From assembly GCA_011773355.1 (NCBI GenBank), contig WVXT01000068.1:14936-48161 (forward strand): DNA of 33,226 nucleotides, written 5' to 3'. The position numbers and the translations under genes are program-made. Position 1 is the first letter of the stretch, and the number at the start of each line of letters is the position of its first letter. Shown here piece after piece: positions 26,500-33,226 of this stretch. Under the pieces are notes generated by a model, which saw only the letters and a list, made by a program, of their open reading frames with translations, made no database searches and had not been told where the DNA came from. Source of the DNA: a bacterium. GTDB lineage: Bacteria > UBA6262 > WVXT01.

Positions 26500-27366
26500 A
26501 TGAAAGATAAAGTCAGAACTGCCCTGGTGCAAATGGAAGTAGCCGGTCTGCAGCCAGAGAAGAACGCTTCCCGAATGAAGGAATTTGTTGACAATATTTT
26601 TGATAAAAGGAAAGTGGAGCTAATACTATTTCCTGAACTTGCCAACACGGGGTATGTTAAGAGCATGGACCAGGACTTCGGCCGGGAGTTCCTGAAGTGT
26701 GCAGAAGCGATTCCCGGATATACCACCAACATTCTGGCTAAGCTGGCTAAAAGACACAAGACTCATATTGTGGTGGGATTAGCCCAGCTTCATCCTCAGA
26801 TACCGGGCACCGTATATAATTCTTCGGTTCTGATGGGGCCCCGGGGAGACATACTGGGCATCCATCACAAATTACATATTCCTGATGAGGAAAAACACTA
26901 CTTCTATCCGGGTAGTACATTGGAAGTTTACCACACGGAGATTGGCACGATCGGAATGAGCGTCTGCTGGGACAACCTGTTTCCTGAACTAGTACGAATA
27001 TTGGCTTTGAAAGGCATGGAGATTCTCTGCTCCAGTTATTCATGGGGAAAGCCAACCTCTCCCCACAAGAGAGTGACTTATATCCCTACTCGCTTCCGAT
27101 GCTTCTCCATGATGTATGCAATATCTAACAGAATATATGCAATGGCATGCAATCCCGTGGGTAAATATAATGGACACGATTTCGATGGGCATAGTGCCAT
27201 AGCCGGACCTGACGGAAAGATTCTTGCCTATTCGGAGAAGGAAGGGGAAGAAGAAGTTCTTTTTGTGGAATTCAGTAATGACCACCTACTGGAAATGAGA
27301 GCCATCTCTCCCATCTTCAGAGACCGCCGACCGGAATTGTATGGTTTACTCACCGAGCCCTTCTAA
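26500..27366 (+). CDS. Carbon-nitrogen hydrolase (nitrilase superfamily)
   Basis: The product is 288 residues with the Glu-Lys-Cys triad: E46 in LFPELANTGY, K124 in HHKLHIPDEEKHYF and C156 in GMSVCWDNLFPE. Superfamily members hydrolyse amides (omega-amidase, N-carbamoyl amidase) or nitriles, often releasing ammonia. FYPGST and the CWDNLFPE loop favour an amidase; the exact substrate is open. AAAGGGG precedes the ATG. It ends the 12-kb run of plus-strand genes; a weak CTAC/GTAG hairpin follows. Confidence 0.9.
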   Translation: MKDKVRTALVQMEVAGLQPEKNASRMKEFVDNIFDKRKVELILFPELANTGYVKSMDQDFGREFLKCAEAIPGYTTNILAKLAKRHKTHIVVGLAQLHPQIPGTVYNSSVLMGPRGDILGIHHKLHIPDEEKHYFYPGSTLEVYHTEIGTIGMSVCWDNLFPELVRILALKGMEILCSSYSWGKPTSPHKRVTYIPTRFRCFSMMYAISNRIYAMACNPVGKYNGHDFDGHSAIAGPDGKILAYSEKEGEEEVLFVEFSNDHLLEMRAISPIFRDRRPELYGLLTEPF

Positions 27367-27984: not shown

Positions 27985-29073
27985 ATGACAGGCGTATTAG
28001 TTCTGGAGGATGGAACCTATTTTGAGGGTATCTCTATAGGGAAAGCCGGAGAAAGGATAGGAGAAGTAGTTTTGAATACTGCTGTTGTTGGTTACCAGGA
28101 GATCATGACCGACCCGGCAAATGCAGGCAAGATTCTGGTTTTCACCTATCCCTTGATAGGTAATTACGGTGTAGCCAGGAAATTTTCCGAGTCTAGAAAA
28201 TGTTGGATAGAGGCATTGGTTATAAGAGAAGAAAGCAAAACATATTCCAATTGGCAGGCAGAGGAGACTTTCAATAATTTCCTTAACAAGGAACGTCTGG
28301 TTGCCGTAAGCGAGGTCGATACAAGGACCCTGGCTGTCAGGGTTCGAGATTATGGCGAGATGCTGGGAATAGTTTCCACTGCCGTGCCGCTCGCTGGCAA
28401 GGAGAGAAAGATTGGTGACTTAGTTAAAAGGGTAAAAGATTATAAGAAACACATGAAAAGGAACTTCATAACAAATATCTCCAGAGAGATTACGGAAATT
28501 AAAAGTAATAATTCAGGACCGAAGATAGCTATAATCGATTTGGGAATGTCGAATAGTTTTGTTAAACAATTAAAGACTCTGGGATGCAATCTTACGTTGT
28601 TGCCCTATAATACTGATCAAGAGAAAATTCTGGGATTGAATCCTGATGGATTGATTATTTCTAATGGACCGGAAGAAGATGAAGCAATTTCTGGAATCGT
28701 AGAGGTAGTTAAGAAGCTCATCGGAAAAATTCCCATCTTAGGTATTTCTTTGGGACATGAAATTATGGCTCTCGCCCTGGGAGGCAGACTGAAGAGACTG
28801 AAAATAGGTCATCGCGGTGTAAATTATCCGGTAAAGTCTTCCTCTTCCCATAAAGGTGATATCACGGTGCAGAACCATTCATTTGTCGTGGACGAGGAGT
28901 CAATAAAAGGTAGGGATGACATCAAAATTACACTGCGTAATGTCAATGATGACTCAATTGAAGAGATGGAAAGTGGCCCGCTAAAGTTTATTTCTACCCA
29001 GTACTATCCTGTAAGTCCTGGATTTGATGAGATAAATGTTGTATTCAAAAGATTCTTAGAACTCATGAAATAA
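27985..29073 (+). CDS. carA: Carbamoyl-phosphate synthase small subunit with destroyed glutaminase triad
   Basis: The product is 362 residues, typical CarA length. The N-terminal domain is normal ([48 protein letters not shown]). The class I amidotransferase domain (about 180-362) keeps its framework ([30 protein letters not shown]). However, the nucleophile elbow is GISLGHE: S255 replaces the catalytic Cys, and E259 the glutamine-contacting Gln. The later HPE motif reads QYYPVSPG: Y341 and V343 replace the catalytic His and Glu. Glutaminase activity should be absent, as in ammonia-dependent vertebrate CPS I, which also has Ser for Cys. It lies 10 bp before carB, so the partner can still assemble. 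ATG 27985 follows AGGAGAAGG. Confidence 0.95.
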
Positions 29074-29083
29074 GGAACCTGAC

Positions 29084-32000
29084 ATGCCCAAGCGAAAAGA
29101 TATAAATAAGATATTGATGATCGGCTCCGGCCCCATTGTTATTGGCCAGGCCTGTGAATTTGACTATTCCGGTTCTCAAGCCTGTAAGGCTTTAAGAGAA
29201 GAAGGTTATTTTACTATCCTCGTAAATAGCAATCCCGCTACTATTATGACCGACCCTGGTATGGCAGATGTGACCTACGTTGAGCCACTAACCGTAGAAG
29301 CCTTAACGGAAATAATAAGGAAAGAAAGACCTGACGCTATTCTGCCCACACTGGGTGGACAGACAGGGTTGAACCTGGCTTATTTTCTAATGAAAGAAGG
29401 CGTACTGGAAAAATATGGCGTAGAATCTATAGGAGCCAATGTTGAAGCCATTTCCCGAGCTGAAGATAGAGAGCTATTTAAGAAGGCAATGCAAGAGATA
29501 GGCGTAGATGTTCCCAAAAGTGGAATTGCTACTAATCTGGAAGAGGGCATGAGGATAGGCCTGGAGATAGGATTTCCGTTGATTTTGAGACCAGCGTATT
29601 GTTTAGGAGGGAGCGGTGGTTCTACTGCCTATAATAAGGAAGAACTGGAAGAGTTTCTAATAAAGGGCCTGGAGCTAAGCCCGGTGGGGCAAGTGTTGGT
29701 GGAGCAATCTGTGTTGGGGTGGAAAGAGATAGAGTATGAAGTGATGAGGGATTGCGTGGACAATGTTATTATGATTACTTCCATGGAGAATGTGGACGCC
29801 ATGGGTGTACACACCGGGGATAGTATAGTGGTTGCACCATCGCAGAGCCTTACCGGAGAGGAATACGCACAGTTTGTGAATCTGTCCAAAAAGATTATAA
29901 GAAAGGTGGGCATAACCGGGGGAGGGGCAAATATTCAATTTGCCCAGAATCCGGATAATGGACATATTGTGATTATCGAAGTCAATCCCAGACTTTCCCG
30001 GAGTTCAGCTTTGGCTTCTAAAGCTACAGGTTTTCCCATTGCCAGGGTGGCTACGAAATTGGCTGTGGGCTTAACTCTCCCCGAGGTTCTCAACCAGATT
30101 ACAGGAAAGACAACATCATTCTTTGAACCCACGGTCGATTATTGTGTATTTAAAATTTGTAGATTTACTTTTGAGAAATTTCCCCAGGTGCAAAGAGTCA
30201 TAAATACGTCTATGAAGGCAGTTGGCGAGGCGATGTCTATCGGCAGAAACTTTAAAGAAGCGCTTCAGAAGGGAATAAGGTCTACGGAGACCGGGAGATT
30301 CGGGTTAGGTTCAGATGGCAAGGACAGAATCACCGATGAATCATTAAAATCAGCGTCGGAGGATTTGATTAAGGAAGTAAGAGAAAGAATAAGAATTCCC
30401 AATGATGAGAGACTATTTTTTATCAAGTATGGTCTCAAGCTGGGACTGGCAGTTGATGAGATTTACGAGTTATCAAAAATTGATAAGTGGTTTATTGATA
30501 ATATGAAACAGATTATGGAACTGGAAAGAGAGATAAAGAAATATGAAGGGAAGAATGCAAAAAGTAAGATTAGAATTCCGCCAGAGTTACTTAAGAAAGC
30601 AAAAAAGAATGGTTTCTCGGATATACAGCTTGCCTATCTTCTGAACTCCACAGAGAAAAAAATAAGGTCTTATAGAAAAAAATGTAATATAAAGGCAGTT
30701 TATAAATTAGTAGATACCTGCGGGGGAGAGTTTAAAGCGGAGAAACCTTATTATTATTCTACGTACGAAACCAATAATGAAAGCCAGCCATCGGGGAACA
30801 GGAAGGTTCTTATCCTGGGAGGGGGGCCTAACAGGATCGGGCAGGGCATAGAGTTTGACTACTGTTGTTGTCACGCATCGTACGCTCTGAAAGAAGAGGG
30901 CATTGAAAGCATTATGGTAAATTGCAATCCAGAAACTGTCTCCACTGACTATGATACTTCGGACAAATTGTATTTTGAGCCGTTGACAGTTGAGGATGTA
31001 TTGAATATCGTGGATATTGAAAAGCCGATGGGAATAATAGTACAGTTTGGAGGGCAGACTCCCCTGAACATATCTGTACCATTGGCCAAGGCAGGAGTGA
31101 AAATTTTGGGAACCAGTCCCGATTCTATAGACCGCGCAGAGGATAGAAAAAGGTTCCAGCAGATGCTTAAGAAATTGAAACTCATCCAGCCTGATAACGG
31201 TACAGCTACCTCATTGGAAGGAGCAAAGAAGGTTGCCCAGAGGATAGGATATCCGGTAGTAGTAAGGCCTTCTTATGTTCTCGGTGGTAGAGCAATGGAG
31301 ATAGTCTATGATGAGGAAGGTTTAGGAAATTTTATGGAAAAAGCAGTGGAGGCATCTCCTGAACGGCCGATTCTTATCGACAAGTTCTTAGAAGACGCTA
31401 TAGAAGTCGACGTGGATGCAATAGCCGATGGTAAGAATTGCGTGATAGGTGGGATTATGGAGCACATTGAAATGGCGGGCATCCATTCCGGCGATAGTGC
31501 AATGGTTATTCCGCCTTATACTTTAGGAGAAGACATAATAGAAATAATAAAGAAAAATACCTATGCTTTGGCCAGGGAACTAAATGTGAAAGGACTTTTG
31601 AATATCCAGTACGCTGTTAAGAATAATGTGGTCTATGTCCTGGAGGTAAATCCCCGGGCAAGTAGAACGATTCCCTTTGTGAGTAAGGCCATAGGAGTTC
31701 CTCTGGCAAAGCTGGCAACCAAGATAATGTTGGGAAAGACCCTGCAAGAGTTGGGATTCACCAGGGAAAAGGAGATCAATCACGTAGCGGTAAAAGAGTC
31801 TGTATTTCCTTTTATAAGGTTCCCCGGGGCTGATGCCATCCTGGGTCCGGAGATGAAATCTACAGGAGAGGTTATGGGAATAGATTCCACATTTGGTGTA
31901 GCTTACGCGAAAAGCCAGATAGCTGCCGGACAAAAGTTGCCCAAAAATGGGAATGTATTCATTAGTGTGAAGAACCAGGACAAGAGGAGTATTGTGTTCA

Positions 32001-32356
32001 TTGCCAAAAGACTTGCTGATTTCGGGTTTAAGATTATGGCCACTTCTGGCACAGCAGATACCCTTGTGAGAAGTGACATAGAAGTGGAGACTCTGCCTAA
32101 ACTTCTCGAAGGGAGGCCCAACATTATTGACTTAATAAAAGATGGCAAGGTAGACCTGATAATAAACACTCCCGCAGGGAAAGCAACAAAAGAGGATGAG
32201 GCGAAGATAAGATCCCATGCAATTCTTTATAGCGTGCCTCTTATAACTACTGTGGCTGGTGCTCAGGCATCTGTTAATGGAATCGAAAATTTGATTAAGA
32301 GACCGGAGATGTCTGTAAAGTCATTACAGGAATACCATAAAGAAATAAAACAATAA
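29084..32356 (+). CDS. carB: Carbamoyl-phosphate synthase large subunit
   Basis: The product is 1090 residues, full length. The N-terminal ATP-grasp half (1 to about 400) makes carboxyphosphate: [56 protein letters not shown]. The oligomerisation domain lies at about 400-550, with [20 protein letters not shown] at the junction. The C-terminal ATP-grasp half (about 565-935) phosphorylates carbamate: [50 protein letters not shown]. The MGS-like regulatory domain is C-terminal ([17 protein letters not shown]). No key residue appears lost, so synthesis from bicarbonate, ATP and ammonia should work. It would supply carbamoyl phosphate for pyrimidines or arginine. There is a weak AAGGA before the ATG. 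Confidence 0.97.
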
Positions 32357-32376: not shown

Positions 32377-33226
32377 ATGAGCGGGATTTTTGGAGTGGTT
32401 TCCAGGAGAGACTGTGCTGAGATTCTTTTCTACGGAACGGATTACCATTCCCACCTGGGAACAGCATATGGAGGTATGGCAATCCTGGGAGAGGATTTCA
32501 CGCGCCAGATACATAACATAAGCCAGGATCAATTTAAGTCAAAATTCTATCAGGATTTCAAGCGTATGAAGGGCAACAAGGGCATCGGCGTTATTAGCGC
32601 CTTTGACGAACAGCCTATTTATTTAAGCTCAAAGTTTGGCCCATTTTGTATAGTCACCAATGGTATCCTGGAAAATATCGAAGAATTGGTAAGCGGGCTT
32701 TTGCAGAAAGGAATAACTTTCAGTGAAGTGAGTAAAGACACGGTTAATGTAACCGAGCTCGTAGCTAAATTAATCAGTCAGGGAAACAATTTGATAGATG
32801 GCATAGAGAAGATGTTCGACGCCATAGATGGTTCCTGTTCACTTTTACTATTGAGTAAAGAAGGAATCTACGCTGCCAGAGACAGATATGGGTATACGCC
32901 CCTGGTAGTGGGAAAACGGGAGGATGCCTGGGCAGTTACTTCTGAAAGTAGTGCCTTTCCCAATATTGAGTTCGAAATTGTTAAATACCTCGAACCCGGA
33001 GAGATAATTTTGATAAATGAGCAGGGCATGGCACAAAGGCGGCCGGGTGGAGGGACTAGTCAAATCTGCGCATTTCTCTGGATATATGCCGGCTTTCCCG
33101 CTTCCTGCTATGACGGGATAAATGTAGAGACAGTAAGGGAAAGATGCGGAAGATTTTTGGCAAAAAGAGACGGGGATATACAAGTAGATGTAGTCTCTGG
33201 AGTTCCCGATTCAGGAATTGCGCATG
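32377..33226 (+). CDS. PurF-like amidophosphoribosyltransferase paralogue lacking the N-terminal Cys (3' end cut by window)
   Basis: The open frame runs from ATG 32377 to the window edge (283 codons), 20 bp after carB and behind CAGGGGG. The family is shown by MSGIFGVV, GTDYHSHLGTAYGGM, NGILENIEEL, YAARDRYGYTPLVVG, YLEPGEI, ICAFLWIYAGFPAS and VVSGVPDSG. These match the Ntn amidotransferase plus start of the phosphoribosyltransferase domain of PurF. The nucleophile Cys at position 2 is Ser, and the Arg of the glutamine-binding RYST motif is gone (GIGVISAFDEQP). I recall a PurF-like group in Clostridia and Bacteroidetes with MGGFFG at the start and the same GTDYHSHLG motif, so Cys loss may be a family trait. 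Function is therefore probably not glutamine-dependent. The PRPP-binding loop lies beyond the edge. Confidence 0.85.
   Translation, partial: MSGIFGVVSRRDCAEILFYGTDYHSHLGTAYGGMAILGEDFTRQIHNISQDQFKSKFYQDFKRMKGNKGIGVISAFDEQPIYLSSKFGPFCIVTNGILENIEELVSGLLQKGITFSEVSKDTVNVTELVAKLISQGNNLIDGIEKMFDAIDGSCSLLLLSKEGIYAARDRYGYTPLVVGKREDAWAVTSESSAFPNIEFEIVKYLEPGEIILINEQGMAQRRPGGGTSQICAFLWIYAGFPASCYDGINVETVRERCGRFLAKRDGDIQVDVVSGVPDSGIAH

Follow-up and report, generated by a model that had tools for sequence, protein, structure and literature searches.

A bacterial CarA subfamily without the glutaminase triad points to a probable ammonia-fed carbamoyl-phosphate synthetase

Introduction

Carbamoyl phosphate is a building block of arginine and of the bases of DNA and RNA. 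An ammonia-dependent carbamoyl-phosphate synthetase (CPS) of the ATP-grasp type is familiar from the urea cycle of animals. The CPS I of tetrapods has no catalytic Cys and takes free ammonia as the nitrogen donor, and the cases of frog and fish CPS indicate that glutamine-binding residues can be lost first (PMC7657897). The E. coli CPS uses ammonia only at very high concentration, which was judged likely to be physiologically irrelevant (PMC6245113). Our literature search, which had partial coverage, returned no paper on a glutaminase-dead CarA in bacteria. Here, we analyze a stretch of 33,226 nucleotides (hereafter, the window) from a bacterial contig, in which a first-pass annotation had reported a CarA deprived of its three catalytic residues and had suggested that the synthetase is fed by free ammonia.

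Results

CarA of the window has lost the glutaminase site

The window carries an open reading frame for the CPS small subunit, directly followed by carB. The following features were located in carA:

27985-29073, forward strand: carA, glutaminase-dead CPS small subunit (open reading frame of 362 residues, family profiles and AF2 model)
28117-28119, forward strand: Ala45, at the position of E. coli Ser47
28672-28674, forward strand: Glu230, at the position of E. coli Gly243, the oxyanion strand SNGPGD having become SNGPEED
28741-28761, forward strand: nucleophile elbow GISLGHE, with Ser255 (codon TCT, 28747-28749) at the position of E. coli Cys269
29005-29013, forward strand: TATCCTGTA (Tyr-Pro-Val), YPV in place of HPE, at the positions of E. 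coli His353 and Glu355
29014-29031, forward strand: SPGFDE in place of E. coli SPGPHD (357-362), with P360 to F and H361 to D (residue table)

In a profile search the protein scored 353 bits on TIGR01368 (cut-off 307), and the Pfam domains CPSase_sm_chain and GATase were both found at full length. The AF2 model (pLDDT 91.6) superimposed on E. coli CarA with a TM score of 0.90 and on human CPS1 with 0.83-0.84. Alignment with E. coli CarA placed Tyr341 at His353 and Val343 at the Glu355 of HPE; a one-residue deletion follows immediately, so that either Val or a gap is placed opposite this Glu according to how the sequences are aligned. The Ser255 codon and the YPV triplet lie, exact to the base, where the first-pass annotation had read them, and the reading frame, the profiles and the E. 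coli alignment agree with its claim that Cys, His and Glu are all replaced in a full-length, in-frame CarA. Ser47 of E. coli CarA is a glutamine-binding position, and the SPGPHD loop forms part of the tunnel wall at the CarA-CarB interface. What marks a glutamine-hydrolysing CPS is missing from the window CarA both as regards the Cys-His-Glu triad and as regards the pocket and oxyanion residues S47 and G243.

The triad loss is shared by a large and conserved subfamily

The first-pass annotation had treated this CarA as a single oddity. The loss of the triad stood, but the protein turned out to belong to a widespread subfamily, usually present as a paralogue beside a glutaminase-competent CarA. 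The subfamily (the dead set) was found in about 53 genomes (one genome per species scanned), and no member of it has Cys, His and Glu all intact. The scan patterns NTAVVGYQ and E[IL]MTDP[AS]N favor the dead subfamily, so that the genome count, and likewise the M36/T37 to VV and Y48 to N changes, carry an ascertainment bias. The hosts are mostly Candidatus Omnitrophota, together with Ratteibacteria, RBG_13_61_14 and the small phylum of the window.

The Cys is replaced in every genome of the set except L073, in which His and Glu are gone. Over the 60 rows of the dead set, in which some loci were entered twice and two rows come from a Margulisbacteria contig, position 269 is occupied by Ser in 37, by Ala in 17, by Gln in 3 and by Cys, Gly or Val in 1 each. 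Hence, of the parallel with CPS I drawn before, the Ser of the window holds but a Cys-to-Ser change as such is not the point, many members having Ala, Gln, Gly or Val. Position 47 is Ala in 50/60 rows and Ser in 26/26 intact copies, and position 243 is Glu in 58/60 rows and Gly in all 26 intact copies. Of the 60 rows, 44 have F at P360 and 37 have D or N at H361; the intact copies keep P360 in 25/26 and H361 in 19/26 cases. Across the dead clade the remodelled positions are conserved (E at position 243 and, in most cases, S at 313), and Q273 is often changed. A CarA in which the Cys is retained and HPE reads NPE was seen at L034 (G020).

Three congeners of the window's genome, at 85-86% identity, share the GISLGHE elbow and the same triad loss. 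Within the genus, dN/dS was 0.13-0.18 for carA and 0.06-0.12 for carB, which indicates purifying selection. In a CarA tree (a quick search with SH-aLRT support and no bootstrap, with animal CPS not among the sequences) the 44 dead CarA sequences used formed a single clade with an SH-aLRT of 99, active-site and tunnel columns having been removed. By this tree, the triad was lost in the ancestor of a large clade.

The partner CarB is intact, with changes at the ammonia tunnel

Downstream of carA, the following features were located:

29084-32356, forward strand: carB, full-length large subunit of 1090 residues, with the ATP-site residues retained in both halves
29777-29779, forward strand: CarB Thr232, at the position of E. 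coli Cys232
29873-29878, forward strand: CarB Phe264-Val265, at the position of E. coli Met264-Arg265

Apart from E208 to Q, all the ATP-site residues checked in the two halves are retained. The CarB beside the dead CarA is thus intact, as had been claimed, with the two ATP-grasp active sites that characterize a glutamine-hydrolysing CPS. Cys232 of E. coli CarB lies in the ammonia tunnel, and Met264-Arg265 belongs to the tunnel wall facing CarA. All 47 CarB partners of dead CarA have Thr at 232 and Phe at 264, and 46/47 have Val at 265. C232 is retained in every half-length CarB (see below) and in every CarB partnering an intact CarA in the set, and M264 and R265 are retained in 21/21 half-length and 2/2 full canonical CarB proteins. 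On the CarB side, the proteins paired with dead CarA group together in one clade (SH-aLRT 99) that persists when the tunnel columns are left out, and a full-length CarB adjoins the dead CarA wherever the contig extends far enough. In a study of tunnel-wall perforation, Kim and Raushel in 2004 reportedly mutated P360 and H361 of CarA together with R265 of CarB. The tunnel-facing changes in both subunits suggest to us that the tunnel may now admit ammonia from outside. This entry route, by way of an opened wall where CarA meets CarB, is, however, the least secure step of our proposal, and we advance it as a possibility somewhat short of even odds.

Omnitrophota often carry a second, glutamine-type CPS

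A second CarA was found in 34/49 genomes of the dead set, at 36-45% identity (two were matched in pieces), and its Cys, His and Glu were intact in 26/26 rows checked (a few loci overlap). It usually lies beside a CarB of about 550 residues that corresponds to the N half, with the pre-ATP-grasp, ATP-grasp and oligomerisation domains. This pairing was seen in about 20 genomes (for example, L057:2902-4566, L065:6726-8354 and L044:3962-5614), and a separate gene for the C half was not found in the genomes searched. In a minority (G045, G061, G073, G078 and G095) a longer, canonical CarB adjoins the intact CarA. Each half of the Aquifex CPS catalyzes both ATP-dependent partial reactions (PMC6022934), which makes a homodimer of half-length CarB plausible; possibly, then, the half-length CarB and the intact CarA form a homodimeric CPS. 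Intact and dead CarA share one contig in L057, L062 and L065. The gene order in L057 runs pyrG, intact carA, half-length carB, other genes, dead carA, carB, purF, guaA, purL and purQ; in L065 the dead carAB pair is followed by glnA and gltB.

The dead CarA belongs to the only CPS found in the window's genus

In the four genomes of the window's genus, which are 84-96% complete, we found one full-length CarA, the dead one, and one CarB per genome. One congener, G001, has in addition a CarA fragment of 46 residues at a contig end (93% identity). In the window's own genome a PF00117 search gave only TrpG, CTP synthase (PyrG) and CarA, and no second CarA. The search for another intact carA elsewhere, proposed in the first-pass annotation, thus found none in the four genomes. 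Were a second CarA present in all four, the chance that incompleteness alone hid it each time would be, by our estimate, about 7e-5 (0.16 x 0.08 x 0.04 x 0.14, assuming independence); because the genomes are incomplete metagenome-assembled genomes (MAGs), the case for its absence from the genus is strong without being conclusive. Consumers of carbamoyl phosphate are present: three of the genomes have two OTC/ATC-family genes each and the window's own has one, of the lower-scoring type, which we take as a putative ATC. Glutamine synthetase is also present in the genus. A nitrilase-family gene upstream of carA (26500-27363) was considered as a dedicated ammonia source and rejected, being missing in the congener G003; there (L039), the thioredoxin reductase gene is followed directly by a small membrane gene and carA.

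Other glutamine-dependent steps in the window's genus

The gene that follows carB resembles purF, and its nucleophile is gone as well:

32377-33226, forward strand: PurF-like gene with Cys1 to Ser (MSGIFG), extending beyond the window end

With 225 bits on TIGR01134, against a cut-off of 350, the gene is called PurF-like and not PurF. Relatives with Ser or Ala at Cys1 occur in G001-G004, L054, L067 and G045. Such a gene adjoins carAB in the window and at L041:4574-6046, L169:7542-8942, L067:2986-4416, L133 and L173:7150-8451, beginning with Ser (MSG) or, in G004, with Ala (MAG). In some genomes this subfamily occurs next to a canonical PurF; in the window's genus no canonical PurF was found, only weak GlmS-like matches. 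At the window edge the gene is split by an N and an apparent frame change (33226; G000:C71:48161-48163), likely an assembly join because the congeners carry the gene whole.

PurL is present in all four genomes of the genus, G000-G003 (L195, L193, L194 and L196), and in none of the four was PurQ/GATase_5 found alongside it. Between hisB and hisA, the his operon lacks a hisH (L005:10350-11734 and L048:5055-6445; gene names assigned from the sequences), HisF lies elsewhere (L174:8991-9758), beside purL and pyrG, and HisH is not among the PF00117 matches of the window's own genome. A GuaA paralogue of 311 residues, with the synthetase domain but no GATase, is present in 4/4 genomes of the genus; forms of 311-321 residues are found in G000-G003 and G045 (L204:8183-9115 and L043:11177-12139), and in G045 the gene adjoins the dead carA. 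In G001 and G002 it stands alongside a full GuaA that is intact (GICYGAQ, HPE). Tentatively, the genus may have moved several steps from glutamine to free ammonia, namely CPS, the PurF-like amidophosphoribosyltransferase, FGAM synthase, perhaps IGP synthase and the GATase-less GuaA paralogue, with CTP synthase, TrpG and the canonical GuaA staying intact; we would put this at a little under an even chance.

Discussion

We consider it likely, with a probability of about 0.8, that carAB of the window encodes an ammonia-dependent bacterial CPS in which CarA serves as a structural or gating subunit. Carbamoyl phosphate would be made from free ammonia, bicarbonate and two ATP without hydrolysis of glutamine. 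CarA, which has no nucleophile, general base, acid or glutamine-pocket residues, would keep its fold for a structural or gating role, and ammonia may enter through a tunnel wall opened by P360F/H361D in CarA and C232T/M264F/R265V in CarB. This is the proposal of the first-pass annotation, and it is the reading best supported by the ancestral loss, the purifying selection, the retained catalytic residues of CarB, the sole CPS and the presence of consumers, all of them read from sequence. The pocket and tunnel changes (CarA S47 to A, Gly243 to Glu, P360 to F and H361 to D; CarB C232T, M264F and R265V) and the Cys1 to Ser change of the next gene were absent from that annotation. As the E. coli CPS needs very high ammonia, a large gain in affinity for ammonia must be assumed for the enzyme with the dead CarA.

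It has to be asked whether CarA might do more than hold the complex together. Its GATase domain is whole and under selection, and the conservation of the remodelled positions goes beyond the needs of a mere scaffold, which would suit a pseudo-amidotransferase sensor whose old glutamine pocket binds another metabolite and gates an ammonia-using CarB. We regard such a sensor as rather unlikely; the idea extends the ammonia-fed reading and is no true alternative to it. A supply of ammonia in trans by another glutaminase, such as the second system's intact CarA if it docked onto the full-length CarB, would fit the occurrence of intact CarA in most Omnitrophota, including L057, L062 and L065, where one contig holds both, but the window's genus has no intact CarA that we could find, and the face of CarB towards CarA is altered (R265V, M264F, C232T) at residues that the CarB of the intact CarA retains. 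This makes the in-trans route improbable.

Persistence of an altered glutaminase activity, with Ser255 as the substitute nucleophile, draws on the prevalence of Ser at this position. Ala, Gln, Gly or Val in so many other members argues against it, His and Glu are gone, and S47, G243 and often Q273 are changed; we give this reading very little credence and reject it on the clade data. That the sources are MAGs, and that the PurF-like gene contains an N where the window ends, might suggest a pseudogene, a sequencing error or a misassembly, but the same state recurs in about 53 separate assemblies with open frames and a dN/dS of about 0.15, so that the independent genomes refute an artefact, the chance of which we deem negligible.

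If carAB is indeed fed by ammonia, the dead CarA, the coupled tunnel changes and the glutamine-type copy retained in sister lineages offer a natural test case of how amidotransferases turn into ammonia-using enzymes and of why a dead subunit persists. Because TIGR01368 names the dead CarA 'glutamine-hydrolyzing', metabolic models built on annotation would assign these bacteria the wrong nitrogen donor.

With E. coli CarAB (CPS II) and its C269S mutant (PDB 1C30, the best PDB sequence match of the window CarA) the system shares the two-subunit architecture and the fold. The E. coli enzyme is, however, glutamine-dependent, whereas here the loss is natural, fixed in a clade and joined by changes of tunnel residues. 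The second CarA of Omnitrophota is of the same family and often in the same genome, but its triad is intact and its CarB is usually an N half with R265 and C232. CarA proteins without the Cys were also seen in gut and rumen MAGs (L102-L122, L127-L129) of Rikenellaceae/Alistipes, Clostridia, Acholeplasmatales, Erysipelotrichaceae, Akkermansia and Thermoguttaceae. Unlike the subfamily described here, these lie on separate tree branches, and their partner CarB, where seen, retains C232 and mostly R265; they make up at least one separate clade and probably reflect several losses. The mitochondrial CPS I of animals (CPS1) likewise combines a glutaminase fold without the catalytic Cys with ammonia as the donor (PMC7657897, PMC6022934). 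CPS I consists of a single fused polypeptide and requires N-acetylglutamate, whereas carA and carB are separate reading frames, His and Glu are lost as well and the loss lies within a bacterial CarA clade. By analogy, the coexistence of a dead and a competent CarA in Omnitrophota may represent a division of labor like that between CPS I and CPS II of animals.
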